64,000 nt of DNA from Phycisphaerae bacterium RAS1 (GTDB lineage Bacteria; Planctomycetota; Phycisphaerae; UBA1845; Fen-1342): the NCBI GenBank assembly GCA_007859745.1, contig SMLU01000001.1, positions 1,488,001 through 1,552,000 of the forward strand, read 5' to 3'. Each line of letters starts with the position of its first letter. Within the stretch, counting starts at the first letter, position 1. Below the pieces are notes generated by a model. That model saw only the letters and a list, made by a program, of their open reading frames with translations. It ran no database searches and was not told the DNA's origin. Positions 5,875 to 64,000 of this stretch are shown in pieces. The position numbers and the translations under genes are program-made.

Positions 5875-5955
5875 GTAGGGTCCGCTGTGCGGACCAATTG
5901 TCTCGCGCGAAATGACCGTGCGGCGCCGTGAATTGGTCCGCACAGCGGACCCTAC
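5875..5955. repeat. 25-base perfect inverted repeat, GTAGGGTCCGC type
   Basis: The arm GTAGGGTCCGCTGTGCGG plus CCAATT (5875-5899) is repeated exactly as its complement at 5931-5955, with a 31-base spacer. No T-run follows, so it does not look like a classical intrinsic terminator. It lies between the convergent M3 peptidase and GAF-domain genes. Confidence 0.85.
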
Positions 5956-5960
5956 AACCC

Positions 5961-6428
5961 CTACAATCCCGCCGCCGCCAGCACCGCCCTCAATCCCTGA
6001 ACGTCGCGCTCGTCGAACGCCCCCACCTCGTGGCTGTCCACGTCCAGCACGCCCCAGCATCGGCCGCGCTCATCAAACACCGGGATGACGACTTCCGAGC
6101 GGTCGCGCGGATCGCACGCAATGTAATTCGCCCCCAGCTCGGCCACGTCGCGCACCACCAGCGGCTGTCGCGAAAGAAACGCCTTGCCGCACGCGCCATG
6201 CAATCCGATCGGAGAGCAGGCCGGCTTGTCGCGCCGCGGGCCAAGCGTCAGTTCGTCGGCGCCTTCGTGAAGGTAAAAGCCGACCCAGGAGACGCCCTTG
6301 TCGTGCAGCGCGTCCCAGAGCGCGTCGACGACCGCCTGCATCCGCGACGCGCGATCGCCAGAAGTGGTGAGGCGGGCGGCGATGTCGGCGTAGGGGCGGG
6401 ACGATGCCGAGCGGGATGTTGCGTCCAT
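5961..6428 (-). CDS. msrC: Free methionine-(R)-sulfoxide reductase (GAF domain)
   Basis: The 155-residue product is almost all one GAF domain. It keeps the three cysteines expected of free-methionine-(R)-sulfoxide reductase: C71 in KPACSPIG, C80 in HGACGKAF and C105 in YIACDP, matching the spacing in E. coli MsrC (YebR). The enzyme reduces free methionine-R-sulfoxide using a thiol relay and thioredoxin-type donors in the cytoplasm. ATG at 6428 is preferred because the longer open frame upstream only reads through a repeat cluster. It is convergent with the M3 peptidase and shares direction with the upstream GTPase gene, separated from it by the family D/C repeats. Confidence 0.88.
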   Translation of the reverse strand: MDATSRSASSRPYADIAARLTTSGDRASRMQAVVDALWDALHDKGVSWVGFYLHEGADELTLGPRRDKPACSPIGLHGACGKAFLSRQPLVVRDVAELGANYIACDPRDRSEVVIPVFDERGRCWGVLDVDSHEVGAFDERDVQGLRAVLAAAGL

Positions 6429-56524: not shown

Positions 56525-57679
56525 ATGAGCGTCAGCGCCTCCACCGAAGATCTCAAGATCGACTGGTCCATCCAGGAAGACGCCGGTCGGCTGGCCGCGT
56601 TCGAGGCGCGCGTCGCCGAGGGCGAGCTGGTCGAGCCGGATGACTGGATGCCGCACAACTACCGCGTCGGCATGCTCAAGATGGCCGAGCATCACGCCAA
56701 CAGCGAGATCGTCGGGGCGCTGCCGGAGGGCGAGTGGATCACGCGGGCGCCGTCGCTGCGGCGGAAGCTGGCGCTGATCGCGAAGGTGCAGGACGAGGTG
56801 GGACACGGCCAGATGCTCTACCGAGTTAGCCAGGACCTCGGCAAGCCGCGCGACGCGATGCTGCGCGACCTGATCACCGGCAAGACCAAGTATCACAACG
56901 TCTTCAACTATCCCGCGCCGACCTGGGGCGACGTGGCCATGATCCAGTGGTTGGTCGACGGGGCGGCGATCATGAACCAGAAAACGCTGGCCGACGGCAG
57001 CTACGGCCCGTACGTCCGCACGATGATGCGGATCAACATGGAAGAGGCGTTTCATTTCAAGAGCGGTGAGGACATGGTGCTGACGCTGATGGGCGGCACG
57101 GCGCGACAGATGAAAATGGCCCAGGAGGCCTTCGACCGCTGGTGGAACCCCTGCCTGATGTTCTTCGGCCCGCCCGACAAGGACAGCAGCAAGACCGCGC
57201 CGTTCATGAAATGGCGGATCAAGACGGCGACCAACGACGAGCTGCGGCAGAAGTTCGTCGACCGCTTCGCCCCGGCGGCGCTCGACCTCGGCTTGGTCAT
57301 CAAAACCTACAAGCGCGACTGTAGCCCGGCCGCCCCCGGCCGGGTGGGGAGTGCGGGCGTCCCGCCCGTCGCCTGTAGCCCGGCCGCCCCCGGCCGGTCC
57401 TCCGATACTGTCGGTGCCTGCCCCTCCGACGGCCGCGTCATTCGCAATCCCGACGGCTCGCCGATCTGGGTCAAGGATGAGAAACTCGCCCTCGATCCGA
57501 AAACCGGCCACTGGACTTTCAGCCAGCCCGACTGGGAAGAGTTCCACCAGGTCATCCGCGGCAACGGCCCGCTCAACAAGCAGCGCGTGGCGTTGCGGCG
57601 CTTCAGCTATGAGCAGGGCGAATGGGTCCGCCGGGCGGTGCTGGGGCAGCGTGCGGGGCTGCCGCCGAGTCGGAATTGA
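56525..57679 (+). CDS. paaA: Phenylacetyl-CoA epoxidase catalytic-subunit-like protein (PaaA) with repeat insertion
   Basis: The 384-residue product matches PaaA, the diiron oxygenase subunit that epoxidises phenylacetyl-CoA: DDWMPHNYRVGMLKMAEHHA, the first ligand region SEIVGALPEG, VQDEVGHGQMLYR with the E-x-x-H pair, EEAFHFKSGEDM with the second E-x-x-H pair and RWWNPCLMFFGPPDKDSSK. PaaA is usually about 310-330 residues. Residues about 265-310 are extra and are partly encoded by two copies of a 24-base dispersed repeat (57320-57343 and 57374-57397). The other epoxidase subunits (PaaB, PaaC, PaaE) and the pathway ligase PaaK are not in the window. Confidence 0.85.
   Translation: MSVSASTEDLKIDWSIQEDAGRLAAFEARVAEGELVEPDDWMPHNYRVGMLKMAEHHANSEIVGALPEGEWITRAPSLRRKLALIAKVQDEVGHGQMLYRVSQDLGKPRDAMLRDLITGKTKYHNVFNYPAPTWGDVAMIQWLVDGAAIMNQKTLADGSYGPYVRTMMRINMEEAFHFKSGEDMVLTLMGGTARQMKMAQEAFDRWWNPCLMFFGPPDKDSSKTAPFMKWRIKTATNDELRQKFVDRFAPAALDLGLVIKTYKRDCSPAAPGRVGSAGVPPVACSPAAPGRSSDTVGACPSDGRVIRNPDGSPIWVKDEKLALDPKTGHWTFSQPDWEEFHQVIRGNGPLNKQRVALRRFSYEQGEWVRRAVLGQRAGLPPSRN
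57320..57397. repeat. Family I repeat pair inside paaA
   Basis: TGTAGCCCGGCCGCCCCCGG plus CCGG appears at 57320-57343 and again at 57374-57397, with a GGGTGGGGAGTGCGGGCGTC spacer-like stretch between. Each copy is itself palindromic. Read in frame they give CSPAAPGR twice, unlike anything expected in PaaA. Confidence 0.85.
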
Positions 57680-58640: not shown

Positions 58641-60575
58641 ATGTCCGCAACCTCCCCCCCCCCCTTCATCCGCGCCCCGCGCGGCTCGCAGCTCTCCTGC
58701 AAAGGCTGGCTGCAGGAAGCCGCCCTGCGCATGCTCATGAACAACCTCGACCCGGACGTGGCCGAAAAGCCTGACGAGCTGATCGTCTACGGCGGCATCG
58801 GCAAGGCCGCCCGTTCGTGGCCCGACTTCGAGCGCATCGTCGCCACGCTGCGGCGTCTCGAAAACGACGAAACGATGCTGGTGCAGAGCGGCCGGGCGGT
58901 GGGCGTGATCAAGACGCACACCGACGCCCCGCGCGTGCTCATCAGCAACAGCATGTTGGTACCGAAATGGGCGACGTGGGACGAATTTCGCCGGCTCGAA
59001 GCGCTGGGCCTGATCATGTACGGCCAGATGACGGCCGGCTCGTGGATTTACATCGGGACGCAGGGGATCTTGCAGGGGACGTATGAGACGTTTGCGGCGC
59101 TGGCGAAACGCCATTTCGGCGAAGGGATTGAGGGATCGAGGGATCGAGGGATCAAGAGCAGGCAGCAGGGAACGGGGAACAGGGAACAGAAGGACGGCGG
59201 TCCCGCGGGTGCCGGGACGCTGCGCGGCAAGCTGGTCGTTACAGGTGGCCTCGGGGGGATGGGCGGGGCGCAGCCGCTGGCGGCGACGTCTAACGACGGG
59301 ACGTTTCTGGCCGCCGATGTTGATCGTTCGCGGATCGAGAAACGTCTGAAGACGTGCTACCTGGACAAGATGACGGAGAGTCTCGATGAGGCGATCGCGC
59401 TGGCGGTCGCCGCTCGCGATCGGCAACAAGCCGTTAGCATCGGCTGGGTCGGCAATGTCGTCGATCTGCTGCGCGAGCTGATCCGCCGCGACATCACGCC
59501 GGACGTGCTGACCGATCAGACTTCGGCGCATGATCCGCTCACCGGATACGTGCCGAACGGCGTCAGGGAACAGGGAACAGGCAGCAGGGATCAGAGGGCC
59601 TGGGGCGCGGGGCGCGGGGCGCAGGGCACGGGGGGCGGGCGGGACGCCGACCGTGGGACAGTCCGGCCGCTTACCTACGAGCAGGCGCTTCGGCTCCGCG
59701 AGGAGAATCCGGATCGCTACGTTCGCGAGAGCTATCGCACGATGGCCGAGCACGTGGCGTGCATGCTGGAGCTGCAACGCCGCGGGGCGATCACGTTTGA
59801 CTACGGCAACAACCTCCGCGGCCACGCGAAGGAAGCGATTGAGCGAGGATACGTGACCGTTGACCATCTGAACTCGCTACTCGCTACTCGCTACTCTGAA
59901 CTTGATGCGTTCCGCATTCCCGGCTTCGTGCCCGAGTACATCCGCCCGCTCTTCTGTGAAGGCTCCGGGCCGTTCCGCTGGGCGGCCCTCTCCGGCGAAC
60001 CCGCGGATATCGCCGTCACCGACCGGGCCGTGCTTGAGACGTTCCCGGAAGAGGAGCACCTTTGCCGCTGGATTCGCATGGCGGGCGAGAAGGTCGCGTT
60101 TCAGGGGCTGCCGGCGCGGATTTGCTGGCTCAAGTATGGCCAGCGGGCGAAGATGGGGCTGATCTTCAACCGCCTCGTGCGAGAAAAGAAAGTCGCCGCC
60201 CCGATCGTCATCGGCCGCGACCATCTGGATTGCGGCTCGGTCGCGTCGCCCAACCGCGAGACAGAGGCGATGAAAGACGGCTCGGACGCCATCGCGGACT
60301 GGCCGATCCTGAACGCGCTCATCAACACCGCCTGCGGCGCAAGCTGGGTCAGCGTCCACCACGGCGGCGGCGTCGGAATCGGCTACAGCATTCACGCCGG
60401 CCAGGTGATCGTCTGCGACGGCACGGCTGAGGCGGACCGGCGCTTGCAGCGCGTGCTGACGGCCGACCCGGCGATGGGCGTCATTCGCCACGCCGACGCC
60501 GGCTACGAGTTGGCCCAGCGGGTCGCCCACGACAAAGGCGTCGACTTGGGTGGCATGGGTCACGGTACTCCGTGA
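58641..60575 (+). CDS. hutU: Urocanate hydratase with three in-frame repeat insertions
   Basis: The 644-residue product converts urocanate to imidazolonepropionate in histidine degradation, using NAD+ as a tightly held cofactor. Family landmarks are intact: [19 protein letters not shown] (about 202-220), [52 protein letters not shown] and [20 protein letters not shown]. Usual length is about 550-560 residues. The excess comes from three stretches: residues about 161-192, 308-343 and 402-422, each encoded by arrays of 7- or 8-base units. The last residues GGMGHGTP and the stop are encoded by a REP hairpin. No other hut genes are in the window. Confidence 0.93.
59123..59194. repeat. Repeat-unit array 6 in hutU
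   Basis: 8-base units GGGATTGA, GGGATCGA, GGGATCGA, GGGATCAA, then GAGCA, GGCAGCA and 7-base GGGAACA units. Only G-rich arms occur; no complementary arm is present. Read in frame as [20 protein letters not shown]. Confidence 0.9.
59563..59640. repeat. Repeat-unit array 7 in hutU
   Basis: GGGAACA, GGGAACA, GGCAGCA, GGGATCA, GAGGGCC, then several GGGGCGC units and CAGGGCA. It shares GGGAACA and GGCAGCA units with the array at 59123. Again single-armed and read in frame. Confidence 0.88.
59868..59905. repeat. Repeat-unit array 8 in hutU (mixed units)
   Basis: GAACTCG, then CTACTCG, CTACTCG, CTACTCT and GAACTTG: it joins the right-arm unit of array 3 (CTACTCG) to that of arrays 1 and 2 (CTCTGAA). 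Read in frame as [12 protein letters not shown]. Confidence 0.88.
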
Positions 60576-60582
60576 CCCGTGC
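60549..60582. repeat. REP hairpin (family H) at the 3' end of hutU
   Basis: GGTGGCATGGGTCACGGTAC faces GTACCGTGACCC as CACGGTACTCCGTGACCCGT. It is the inverse of the REPs flanking the RAYT gene at 62.2-63.0 kb and supplies the last codons and stop of hutU (60573-60575). Confidence 0.9.
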
Positions 60583-60750
60583 TGGGCGGCGGCAGGTGTT
60601 TGTGGGAGCATGAACCGGACCCCGCGGTGGTGGCATGGGCACGACTCCGCCGTATCGAAACGCCACCCCGCCAAGGGGCGATGGTGCGTTCGCGTCGCAG
60701 CAGAGCGTATCGAGCACGGCGCGACGGCCACGCACGCCACGCGGCTGCGC

Positions 60751-60990
60751 TCAACGCGTCCTACAAGGCTTGATTTCCACGTATTTGGCGAGATTAACGC
60801 CATTGTTGATCTCGGTCACATATGATTCGCAGATTCCAGCCGCCACGGCAATGTCCCGGCACGATAGGTCGCTGTCGCGAATTTGGCGGGCGTATTTGAT
60901 GCCGAATAAGTGGATCATCGTCTTTTTCTCACCGTGCAGCGCATCGCCGTACATCGTGCGGAGTTTGGAAGCGAGTTCGGCAACCGTCAT
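60751..60990 (-). CDS. Small HTH-like protein
   Basis: The 79-residue product reads MTVAELASKLRTMYGDALHG, EKKTMIHLFGIKYARQIRDS, DLSCRDIAVAAGICESYVTE and INNGVNLAKYVEIKP. The pattern, including the KxxxIHLFGIKYA and AGxxESYxxEIxxGxxLAxYV segments, resembles an HTH-like domain that I recall as an N-terminal module of some restriction-type proteins. Here it is free-standing. GAAGGACAAATC precedes the ATG. It is 281 bases downstream of the second HTH gene on the same strand, in a lower-GC patch, so transfer is likely. Confidence 0.6.
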   Translation of the reverse strand: MTVAELASKLRTMYGDALHGEKKTMIHLFGIKYARQIRDSDLSCRDIAVAAGICESYVTEINNGVNLAKYVEIKPCRTR

Positions 60991-61271
60991 GATTTGTCCT
61001 TCCTGCCCTGGTTGGCGAATGCGATCTCTCAATGGGTGGCATGCTCCCGGGTTGCATGCTCACGGCCTTTGGCGAGCGTGTTGACTTCAAGAGCAAGCGT
61101 CGTCGTTCCAAGAACATGTCGACCAGGCGCTGCGGCCATACCGCGACACCGCTTTTCACGGCGCCATGATACCGAACCCGTCGCCGACGACTGAGGACAC
61201 TGCTCGCAGAGCAGCGGCACGCAAACCTTGACTCGTTTCCGACGCTGCTCTGACAGTGCCACTCCGCCCTG
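60991..61271. other. Gap between the two HTH-island genes
   Basis: 281 bases without a convincing gene or repeat. On the minus strand, which both neighbours use, no clear terminator is seen, so both may share one transcript. Confidence 0.4.
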
Positions 61272-61937
61272 TTACGCGATCCATCCTTTGTACCTCGCCC
61301 GAATGATCGCGTGGCGCAGCATCGCATCGCGCTCGTCCTCGCGCGCGAGTATCGCGATGCACTGAAATGCGTTCGGCCCTACAATTTCGTCGCCGAAGAC
61401 GCACGTTCGAAACCCCCGGTACTCGGGCGGCAGATCTGAAGCCGTCCGAATGTGTTTGTTGTCCGGTCCCTTGATCACGCTCGCGACATGTTTCGTGTCG
61501 GCGAAGTCGTTTGTCCCGACAAACTCGACTGCCGGAACGATCTTGGGAGCTCTGCCCATGAACACGACAATCCGACGCCGAGGCTGACCGAAGCACTTGC
61601 GGAGTGCGTAACCGATCGAAAACCGGCGCGTTCCCGATGCCAGCTTGACGTCGATCTGCGCCGCGCTTGTGCATTTCTCGCGGTTTCCATTCGGCCAGAT
61701 GTAGGCGAAGTCCGCGCATGCCGCCCAGTTCCCAGCGATCGCGTCCGTGTGGGAATCTCCGACGCCGACGTTCGGAGACACCATTGCGTCAAGTTCGTGC
61801 TTCGGCACGCGCCATTGTGTACCCATTTTCAACCCTCGCAATCGCCCAGAATTCAGCTCCGTCAACACATCGGACACGTCAAGCTTGAGCCACGCCGCGA
61901 TTTCGTCGGGAGTGAGCATCGTGGGAAGGTCGTTCAC
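61272..61937 (-). CDS. Excisionase-type HTH protein fused to an unrecognised domain
   Basis: The 221-residue product has an N-terminal excisionase/MerR-like HTH (TMLTPDEIAAWLKLDVSDVL, then GRLRGLKMGTQWRVPKHELD; residues 6-52). A C-terminal domain of about 150 residues follows with FAYIWPNGNREKCTSAAQID, RRRIVVFMGRAPKIVPAVEF and HVASVIKGPDNKHIRTASDL. That domain is not one I recognise; its alpha/beta look with Asp/Lys positions could fit a nuclease-like or nucleotide-binding fold, but no motif is decisive. GTG at 61937 is preceded by AGGAGAACAAGC and a near-consensus promoter. Confidence 0.62.
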   Translation of the reverse strand: MNDLPTMLTPDEIAAWLKLDVSDVLTELNSGRLRGLKMGTQWRVPKHELDAMVSPNVGVGDSHTDAIAGNWAACADFAYIWPNGNREKCTSAAQIDVKLASGTRRFSIGYALRKCFGQPRRRIVVFMGRAPKIVPAVEFVGTNDFADTKHVASVIKGPDNKHIRTASDLPPEYRGFRTCVFGDEIVGPNAFQCIAILAREDERDAMLRHAIIRARYKGWIA

Positions 61938-61958
61938 GCTTGTTCTCCTATTGCAGGG

Positions 61959-61987
61959 ACTATAAATGACACAAATGACTATGTCAA
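61959..61987 (-). promoter_or_regulatory. Near-consensus sigma-70 promoter with repeats between its boxes
   Basis: On the minus strand TTGACA (61987-61982), a 17-base spacer and TATAGT (61964-61959) lie 22 bases upstream of the GTG start. The spacer region has two AAATGAC direct repeats (61965-61971 and 61973-61979 on the plus strand) that could be an operator. The whole patch 61950-62060 is strongly AT-rich compared with the rest of the window. Confidence 0.75.
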
Positions 61988-62192
61988 GTTATCTAAGTAA
62001 TATAAAGCAAATATACGGTCTTATAATATGTAGGCTGGGAAAACCCTAGGCCGGTACTTTCAACACCGCTAGTTCGGCCCCGTCGGAATCGTCAGACGCT
62101 TAAAGCAAACGTGGTGAGCGTTTTGTTGTGACGCGGGGGTGCCATGGGTGCCATGGAAGCCATGAGGGGCCATGCCGAGGTCAACCATGTCG

Positions 62193-62285
62193 AGCGAGCA
62201 CGGGTCACGGAGTACCGTGACCCATGCCACCCACGCCACCTCATGCCACCCACCGTACTCCGTGACCCGTGCTCGCTCGACGTGA
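62193..62285. repeat. Inverted pair of REP hairpins (family H)
   Basis: GTCGAGCGAGCACGGGTCAC with GGAGTACCGTGACCC (62190-62224) is repeated in inverted form as GTACTCCGTGACCCGTGCTC and GCTCGAC (62255-62281). GCCACCC-type leads lie between. It is 45 bases beyond the end of the RAYT gene. Confidence 0.88.
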
Positions 62286-62329
62286 TTGACTTACGAACGT
62301 CCCGCCTTCCGCACCTTGCCCTTGATCAC

Positions 62330-62923
62330 TCATCGCCGTCGACGCGTAATCGTACCGGGCGTCGGCGTCGGAGGCGGGCCGTCCATTTCGAGGATTGTCG
62401 GGCGGACGCCGGCGTACCAGCGGGCGCTCGACCATTCCCAGTCTTCGGGGATTCGACACAGGCCGCGGCGGACGGGGTTGGCGTGGATGTAGTCGATCGC
62501 GGCCCAGACGGCGTCTTCGCGCAAGAGATTGCGGTCGTATCCGCCGCCGGCCTGCCAGAAGTGGTGCTCGACGCGGCCGTCGGGCCAGGTGACGCGCAGG
62601 CGCTCGAGCCATTCGGGGTGGTACTCGCGGATGTGCGCGATGGCGCGACGCGACACGGCGAGCTTGACGGCCTTGCGGACGGCGCCGATATCGACGTCGG
62701 CGGAGGTGGGCCACAGCAACAAGTGCACATGCTCGGGCATGATGACGTAGGCCCAGAGTTCCAGCGGGAATCGGCGGCGGGCCATTTGGAGGGCGTTGAG
62801 AAACCACTGACGGGTGCGGTCGGCCCTGAGGAATGGGTAGCGGCGATAGCAACAAAACGTCAGCTCGTGGGCGTGGCCGGGCTCGTTCCATGTGCGGCGC
62901 GTCTTGAATTTTCGCCAAGGCAT
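62330..62923 (-). CDS. REP-associated tyrosine transposase (RAYT, Y1 HUH family)
   Basis: The 197-residue product matches RAYT/TnpA-REP proteins: an N-terminal ELTFCCYRRYPFLRADRTRQ segment, the HUH motif as MPEHVHLLLWP (about residues 62-72), a catalytic-tyrosine-helix region (ALQMARRRFPLELWAYVIMP upstream; AIAHIREYHPEWLERLRV downstream) and the YIHANPVRRGLCRIPEDWEW tail. RAYTs nick single-stranded DNA at REP hairpins. REP hairpins of one family flank the gene (62193-62285 and 62958-62999) and one lies at the end of hutU, so this gene is the likely mobiliser of family H. ATG at 62923 begins the usual MPWRKFKTRRTW start. Confidence 0.92.
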   Translation of the reverse strand: MPWRKFKTRRTWNEPGHAHELTFCCYRRYPFLRADRTRQWFLNALQMARRRFPLELWAYVIMPEHVHLLLWPTSADVDIGAVRKAVKLAVSRRAIAHIREYHPEWLERLRVTWPDGRVEHHFWQAGGGYDRNLLREDAVWAAIDYIHANPVRRGLCRIPEDWEWSSARWYAGVRPTILEMDGPPPTPTPGTITRRRR

Positions 62924-62957
62924 GATCGGAGAGTGTAGCGGGCGGGGATGCAGGGTG

Positions 62958-62999
62958 CGAAGCACGGGTCACGGAGTACCGTGACCCATGCCACCCGCC
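62958..62999. repeat. REP hairpin (family H) upstream of the RAYT gene
   Basis: GCACGGGTCACGGAGTACCG with TGACCCATGCCACCCGCCC. It lies 35 bases upstream of the RAYT start, in the gap to the divergent lipoprotein gene. Confidence 0.9.
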
Positions 63000-63100: not shown

Positions 63101-64000
63101 ATGAAGTTAGCAGATCACTGCGACGCTGAAAACCGGCTTCGCTCGCTGGCGTCGCGCGAGTGGCTGGTTATCGCGATGCTCGCCGCGGCGTCGGCGGCCG
63201 GTGGATGTCAGGCGCCGTCCGGGCCGGCCGGGGGCAATGGCGCCCAGCCTCACGGCGCACAAGCGTCCCCGGCTTCGCTCCCGCAGGCATCGAAATCGCA
63301 CGAAGCGCTCGCCAAATTCGGCGGCGCCAGCGCGGTGGTGAGCGTGTTCTGCTTCGCCGCGCCGCGCTCGCAGCGCGACGGCCTGGCGCGCATCTGGAGC
63401 TACCTCCGCGAAGACTGGCTCGACGCGGAGACGGCCGCCCGCCTGCGGCGAAACGGCATCCGCACCGCCCTGGGCCGCGAAGACTACTGGGACGCCGTCC
63501 GGCAGATTCTCGACGGCATCGAAGACCGCCGCGTTTTTCAGCACGACGCGGTGCGGCTTCCGCCGAACTATCCGCTGGCGCTGGAGCTGGACAGCGGACC
63601 GCGCGACCAGACGCTCTTCTACGTCGCCGATGACGGCGTTCTGACCGGCGAAACCTGGGGCGAGAGCCGCAATGTGCTGCGGCTCGATTACCTGCTCGAT
63701 TTGCAGCGGCCGGGCGCGATCATCCTTGAAGTGGTCCCCGAGGTGCGCCGCCGGCAGGACGGCACGCGCTTTGTCCGGACCGACACGGGCGTTATGCTCG
63801 TGCCCAGGTACGACGGCCGGGCGTTTGCGGCGGCGTCCTTCGCGGCGCGGCTTGAGCCGGGCGACTTTCTGGTCGTCGCGCCCAGCGAGCAGTCCGACGT
63901 GTACGGCATCGTCGGCGGTGCGTTCCTGACCGAGGCGGTAGACGGCGAGCCGTTCGACTCGCTGGTGTTCGTTCGTACAGACTTGTCCGATGTCATCCGG
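63101..64000 (+). CDS. Lipoprotein of unknown function, 3'-truncated by window edge
   Basis: The frame from ATG 63101 stays open for 300 codons to the last base, so the C-terminus is missing. The visible product has a leader WLVIAMLAAASAAGGC with a lipobox cysteine at residue 36, then a Pro/Ala/Ser-rich linker and a folded part (ASAVVSVFCFAAPRSQRDGL through LEPGDFLVVAPSEQSDVYGI). It should be anchored to a membrane and face outward. I recognise no family. It is divergent from the RAYT gene, with one REP hairpin in the gap. Confidence 0.65.
   Translation, partial: MKLADHCDAENRLRSLASREWLVIAMLAAASAAGGCQAPSGPAGGNGAQPHGAQASPASLPQASKSHEALAKFGGASAVVSVFCFAAPRSQRDGLARIWSYLREDWLDAETAARLRRNGIRTALGREDYWDAVRQILDGIEDRRVFQHDAVRLPPNYPLALELDSGPRDQTLFYVADDGVLTGETWGESRNVLRLDYLLDLQRPGAIILEVVPEVRRRQDGTRFVRTDTGVMLVPRYDGRAFAAASFAARLEPGDFLVVAPSEQSDVYGIVGGAFLTEAVDGEPFDSLVFVRTDLSDVIR

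Follow-up and report, generated by a model that had tools for sequence, protein, structure and literature searches.

Two small helix-turn-helix (HTH) genes, here called A and B, lie close together in the window (the whole 64,000-nucleotide stretch of Phycisphaerae bacterium RAS1 that was analysed) and raise the question of whether they act as one unit and, if so, whether that unit serves defence, a mobile element or a toxin–antitoxin pair (Table 1). A preliminary description had noted an island of lower GC, suggested to be recently acquired, with both HTH genes on one strand and a REP-associated tyrosine transposase (RAYT) beside it, and these features hold, with a corrected start for gene B, which is likely to be the ATG at 60990 with its AGGA-type ribosome site and not the TTG at 61032. 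Both genes are on the minus strand, 281 bp apart, and their GC content is 0.599 (A) and 0.532 (B) versus 0.66 in the window and 0.66–0.67 in the flanking genes for urocanase, PaaA and the RAYT; the GC3 values are 0.73 and 0.67, respectively, versus 0.83–0.90 in the surroundings. Together with this low GC, recent acquisition is supported by rarity among relatives: gene B was found in one of the 27 genomes of its taxonomic family and HTH_73 (PF24718), the protein family of B, in one of 294 genomes of the phylum, its own in both cases, and the C-terminal domain of A was found in none of the other 391 of the 392 phylum genomes searched, where four other matches concerned the HTH only.

The neighbours of the island are urocanase, PaaA, the RAYT and one protein without a Pfam match. 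Near-perfect REP palindromes of 22 bp, of which there are three in the whole window, enclose the island and, beyond it, the RAYT, and the segment around the left one (60547–60583) is an exact 37-nt inverted copy of 62197–62233. The 11-bp tag CATGCCACCCA of the A–B gap is also found bordering REP palindromes. Between 56.5 and 64 kb no defence gene was identified and no integrase was seen. In the urocanase loci of 14 relatives (L081–L094), which are short stretches, no counterpart of the gene at 63101 turned up. Moreover, the urocanase gene contains in-frame short tandem-repeat tracts with the units AGGGATCG, CAGGGAA and GGGGCGC (urocanase/PaaA stretches 56525–57679 and 58641–60575), around which relatives align as separate pieces, and a similar-looking low-complexity insert was seen by eye near the end of PaaA.

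Table 1. Features of the two-gene island and its borders, as positions in the window.
Feature	Position	Strand	Remarks
REP palindrome, left border of island	60557–60578		GGGTCACGGAGTACCGTGACCC
Gene B	60754–60990	-	79 aa; free-standing small HTH_73 (PF24718) protein; 95.1 bits, cut-off 27
A–B gap	60991–61271		281 bp
11-bp tag CATGCCACCCA	61033–61043	-	one copy, in A–B gap
Gene A	61272–61937	-	221 aa; GTG start; HTH_17 + domain X
Promoter TTGACA-17-TATAGT	61959–61987	-	near-consensus sigma-70; exact match
Tandem repeats GTCATTTGT GTCATTTAT	61962–61979	-	two units of 9 bp, spacer into −10; candidate operator
REP palindrome, right border of island	62202–62223		
RAYT	62330–62965	-	ordinary neighbour; NF047646, 90.7 bits, cut-off 80
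REP palindrome, third copy	62966–62987		beyond RAYT

The protein of gene B matches HTH_73 ("HTH-like domain") end to end, over positions 1–71 of the 71 in the model, and its closest relatives belong to Phycisphaerales metagenome-assembled genomes (59% in L013 and 53% in L015 and L016). A profile of 30 HTH_73 sequences (A2) matches two chains of PDB entry 9R2Z, with E-values of 1.9e-6 and 1e-5, which is RptR, the RMS-proximal transcriptional regulator of EPEC (PMC12255303). The AlphaFold model of gene B made from A2 (pLDDT 93.8) is superimposed by VIA on 9R2Z with a Z of 9.7 and an rmsd of 1.8 over 74 residues at 22% identity, the runner-up entry having a Z of 4.5, and Foldseek gives a TM of 0.74 and an E of 1.5e-3 for the same structure. 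Gene B keeps the recognition-helix Glu (E60), which is present in 28 of the 30 A2 rows, but has Asn (N63) where 26 of the 30 aligned rows and RptR have Lys, a residue shared with only one other row and a difference from the HTH_73 family at large. Since the Glu is kept but Asn replaces Lys, gene B is, as judged from sequence and model, an HTH_73 protein that has the fold of RptR but falls outside RptR proper; by its fold, it would dimerise, bind DNA and repress.

According to PMC12255303, RptR represses an island of type I restriction and DarTG2 genes and binds direct repeats of 9 bp overlapping the −10 element, and its recognition-helix residues Glu58 and Lys61 are invariant in 87 homologues. 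The same paper gives at least two TAGCTA-type palindromes for 54 of 80 RptR-type promoters and adjacent type I restriction–modification genes for 54 of 117 homologues; thus, both features are common in RptR but not strictly defining. Gene B is alike in size (79 aa), fold, profile-level similarity and the conserved recognition-helix Thr-Glu, and the promoter of gene A has tandem repeats of 9 bp that reach into the −10 element, as the RptR targets do in that account. However, B is only 22% identical and has the Lys-to-Asn exchange, the island has GTCATTTGT/GTCATTTAT repeats in place of TAGCTA palindromes, B comes second in the gene order instead of first, and no type I restriction genes adjoin it.

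The family to which gene B belongs is widespread. HTH_73 loci, 37 in number (33 genome contigs and 3 viral contigs from a profile-guided scan, and one Thalassospira plasmid), occur in Planctomycetota, Pseudomonadota, Bacteroidota, Bacillota, Chloroflexota, Acidobacteriota and viral contigs, as judged from record titles, and no mention of PF24718 or HTH_73 was found in the literature searched. In at least 8 of the 37, restriction genes or an HNH nuclease fusion are part of the locus, adjacent to it or close by, a count that comes from Pfam searches on 30 proteins from 23 loci: an R.HinP1I–methylase fusion (L020), HsdS (L033), EcoRII-C (L040), a BsuBI/PstI enzyme (L034), an HTH_73 doublet fused to HNH (L022), and HsdS relatives 3–5 kb from HTH_73 (L029–L031). 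The doublet agrees with the first impression that B was of a type known from restriction proteins. Many of the remaining loci have unrelated neighbours, HTH_73 often being a lone gene, and the surroundings are housekeeping-like in L013, L032 and L038 (by Pfam) and in L039 (by eye). Upstream 9-bp repeats reached P ≤ 0.02 in only 2 of the 28 loci tested, 9 of the 37 having been excluded beforehand as duplicates or for fused or odd starts, and are thus not general for HTH_73.

Several HTH_73 loci have features of their own. Two TAGCTA sites, the recognition palindrome of RptR, lie just upstream of a viral-contig HTH_73 gene (L048:1540–1600), and another viral contig encodes a 475-aa protein in which HTH_73 is embedded with no further Pfam match (L047:5617–7044). 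In three Bacteroidota loci (L034:49–629, L038:5579–6219, L039:5654–6222), HTH_73 directly follows a protein of 113–136 aa that is related to the C-terminal part of a BsuBI/PstI restriction enzyme, and the two could possibly be a conserved mini-pair. On an Acinetobacter baumannii plasmid, a distant HTH_73/RptR-like gene lies in convergent orientation to the genes of an HpaII restriction endonuclease and a cytosine methyltransferase (L070:3001–5485). The same HTH_73 protein (103 aa including the upstream reading) is found unchanged in three gut Clostridia genomes (L026, L027 and L028, at 5929–6240), either by recent transfer or as a shared contaminant, and the gene of a Methylococcaceae metagenome-assembled genome (L023:6001–6222) has one in-frame stop codon and is a probable pseudogene. 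In Hydrogenovibrio, an HTH_73 gene with a damaged start region is followed by an integron attC-like sequence, as seen by eye (L035:6001–6300).

Gene A had been described as an excisionase-type HTH fused to a domain that could not be placed, and so it proves to be. Its HTH_17 match covers residues 7–53 (28 bits, cut-off 27) and it also matches the TIGR01764 excisionase family (29.2 bits, cut-off 28.8), so that it is like these families in the first 50 residues and differs in having a second domain, X, at about residues 75–218. A match to MAD1 (NF047737, methylation-associated defence system) has an E of 0.0048 and 17.1 bits, below the cut-off of 80, and the HTH_17, TIGR01764 and MAD1 models all cover only about 50 residues of the protein. 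Residues 55–221 (approximately 165 residues) have no match in Pfam, PADLOC, PHROGs or the PDB sequences. The AlphaFold model of gene A alone (pLDDT 36.9) is unusable.

Single-sequence searches of 398 Pseudomonadota and 247 Acidobacteriota genomes gave no convincing relative of the C-terminal part of A; matches in 8 of the former (E 0.010–0.044) were judged to be noise after realignment and those in 5 of the latter (E 0.006–0.008) are weak. Exact-peptide scans of viral and genome contigs, which reach close relatives only, returned nothing for A. Further candidates were set aside: an own-genome match (L002, E 0.156) in a stretch among overlapping frames, a Bacteroidales match (L053) treated as chance, a Rhizobium GajA match (E 0.01) that falls on the TOPRIM of GajA and is likewise treated as chance, weak matches from Pararhizobium and phages (E 0.7–8), and G1343/L079 (E 0.007), which has two stops. 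Among 251 Chloroflexota genomes, four matches had an E of at most 0.01 and three were convincing (3.5e-14, 2.9e-11 and 9.0e-6), and an X profile run against 151 relatives of one of the matching genomes recovered that genome and two new ones (2.6e-37 and 5.0e-36). The phyla in these searches are named after the titles of the loci on which each search was centred. The X relatives are five, all in Chloroflexota (L095, L096, L097, L103 and L104), and one of them, L103:2468–3145, is a full-length HTH_17–X ortholog with 35% identity to A over 222 aligned columns and an HTH_17 match of 36.5 bits. Ten residues are invariant in the six aligned members (W81, P82, R113, R120, R122, F139, S153, P170, Y173 and A210), including three arginines and a WP motif. 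Because of these relatives, and of the full-length ortholog among them, X is, on the alignments, a real and previously undescribed family, joined to an HTH in members from two phyla. A profile of the six members (A4) was also compared with the PDB, the best match being eIF1 at an E of 0.93.

The surroundings of the X relatives bear on what the domain might do. In L095, a stand-alone X has as its neighbour an AAA protein that matches IetA with 70 bits; in L097, X comes after genes matching AAA_15/OLD-like models; and in L103, a gene of 787 aa with a weak HATPase_c_3 match (L103:87–2450) lies 18 bp from the HTH_17–X ortholog, on its downstream side. In L104, X is a lone gene with neighbours that, by eye, resemble housekeeping genes, and in L096 it is inside a longer frame at the contig end. 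The L103 ATPase, a member of an unnamed GHKL-like family of about 790 aa present in bacteria and archaea, has relatives on seven plasmids (L105–L111), with SIR2/DUF262, DUF4007, dcm or DndB neighbours in four of the seven records, and finds no match in the PADLOC library. In the genome of gene A, no remnants of a GHKL gene were found in 60401–62400 (best E 1.3), and the L103 protein had no match in a search run without a positive control. The L103 pair is alike in outline to CapS/CapK and further regulators that control an adjoining immune operon, in which, as described in PMC13373217, a DNA-binding protein also stands beside a GHKL-type ATPase/kinase; compared by description, CapS is STAS–wHTH and CapK is HTH–STAS–GHKL, whereas gene A is HTH_17–X. 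WonAB (PMC12137116) was considered as another parallel with a GHKL partner and is unrelated in outline.

Since gene A matches TIGR01764 and HTH_17, has direct repeats in its promoter and has an X relative (L095) in a locus with an integrase, it could be an Xis, an excisionase-like factor binding direct repeats, and take part in the control of a decayed integrative element. However, A is a 221-aa protein whose second domain is conserved, the excisionase-like HTH_17 of L095 is a separate gene of 63 aa beside a stand-alone X, and no integrase was seen in 56.5–64 kb, so this explanation appears very improbable. Scarcely probable at all is a toxin–antitoxin or restriction pair in which A would be the toxin or nuclease and B its repressor or antitoxin, despite the small two-gene layout, the strong promoter with repeats and the fact that RptR controls a DarTG-bearing island (PMC12255303). 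The sole nuclease-like motif of X, a PD-(D/E)xK reading found by eye (D77, D97-x-K99), was dropped because D97 is not kept in L103, L104, L096, L097 or L095; moreover, the gap between the genes is 281 bp and their pairing is not conserved (see below).

Before gene A, the promoter whose −10 element ends 21 nt ahead of the GTG is the sole exact match to TTGACA-17-TATAGT in 64 kb, and with up to two mismatches the pattern has two matches in the window versus 0.18 expected. The repeats agree at 8 of 9 positions with a period of 9, and, with up to two mismatches allowed, GTCATTT-GT-GTCATTT occurs nowhere else in the 64 kb (0.06 expected). A period-9 repeat of this quality has a P of 0.0035 in the 60-bp promoter (0.0055 for any period from 7 to 12) and of 0.0145 in the 123-bp upstream stretch (0.0345 for any period). 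An inverted repeat, TGAC-ATA-GTCA, overlaps the −35 element as seen by eye, and the 123 bp upstream of A hold one TAGATA and no TAGCTA. The preliminary description had this promoter, with direct repeats in its spacer, heading both genes; promoter and repeats are as it stated, but they precede A only. A single promoter for the island is deduced rather than seen, because B lies 281 bp further on and the gap (60991–61271) has no promoter-like site above 7/12. By analogy with RptR, B would be the better candidate to bind the repeats, yet A would be the better one because its L103 ortholog, which has a promoter matching at 11/12 (TTGACA-18-TATACT), also has an upstream 9-bp repeat (8/9, P 0.039) on a 4.7-kb contig without HTH_73.

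The pairing of A with B, which had been put forward as a possible toxin–antitoxin-like arrangement, fails to recur elsewhere. At none of the 37 HTH_73 loci does the domain of A occur within 5 kb, as far as the sequence extends (best E 0.6), and it has no convincing match in 34 HTH_73-bearing genomes or records, where the best of six matches at E ≤ 1 (7.2e-5) concerns the HTH only, and HTH_73 is absent from all five X loci, which are 4.7–13 kb long. Since X is missing at the HTH_73 loci and HTH_73 at the X loci, the pair appears, from these searches, to be unique to this genome so far. Two unrelated single-gene cassettes may thus have landed independently at a REP/RAYT hotspot, B as an orphan HTH_73 repressor and A as a regulator that is decayed or an orphan, and the two would share no function. 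The tag CATGCCACCCA at REP borders and in the gap allows separate arrivals, REP palindromes stand on either side, and HTH_73 is often alone among unrelated genes, once before an attC-like sequence (L035, by eye). However, A and B share strand and low GC, B lacks a promoter-like site of its own above 7/12, and the operator-like repeats in the promoter of A would suit a regulator with the RptR fold. Independent arrival is the main and a serious rival, to be held tentatively and at less than even confidence.

The best explanation, which has about an even chance of being correct, is that the island is a laterally acquired regulatory or accessory fragment of a defence island, with B as a repressor of RptR fold, A as an HTH–X adaptor or sensor of an ATPase, and the repeats as operator. 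A piece of a defence island is probably to be preferred to a toxin pair because B is RptR-like and the relatives of the A domain adjoin defence-type ATPases; the earlier suggestion of a defence module thus has indirect support from the fold of B and these neighbours, but not in its toxin–antitoxin form. In such a fragment, B, whose family and fold are observed, would act as a small DNA-binding repressor, and A would join an excisionase/MerR-type DNA-binding domain to X, most likely an adaptor or sensor, guided by DNA, that serves an ATPase effector of the GHKL, IetA-like AAA+ or OLD-like AAA_15 type, none of which is beside gene A in this genome. Both genes would probably be driven by the single strong promoter ahead of A, and either B, in the manner of RptR, or A might bind the 9-bp repeats over the spacer and −10 element and keep transcription low until relieved. 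Against this explanation are the unpaired occurrence of A and B elsewhere and their distance of 281 bp, the missing Lys in B, the lack of TAGCTA sites, repeats that are not general, the lack of an identified defence gene in 56.5–64 kb, the housekeeping-like surroundings of several HTH_73 and X genes, the repeat upstream of the L103 ortholog on a contig without HTH_73 (which would point to A and not B as the binder) and the lack of a PADLOC match for the L103 ATPase. On this evidence, the island is neither a housekeeping feature nor a toxin pair.

A bolder reading, unlikely as it stands, is that A and B would form a compact and undescribed anti-phage module, an HTH–X sensor or adaptor under an RptR-fold repressor with its own 9-bp operator code, that X would be a recurrent partner, so far without a name, that provides specificity or activation to defence ATPases of the GHKL, IetA-like and OLD-like kinds across several phyla, and that HTH_73 would be a pan-bacterial superfamily of repressors for many defence systems, with RptR as one branch. 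What is new here is that HTH_73 has the RptR fold and that the C-terminal domain of gene A is a real family. Domain X thereby comes to light as a recurrent neighbour of defence-type ATPases, with HTH fusions known from two phyla. Moreover, an anonymous Pfam family, HTH_73, is now linked to RptR, an experimentally studied repressor, and a testable regulatory role is therefore predicted for small HTH_73 proteins beside restriction systems.
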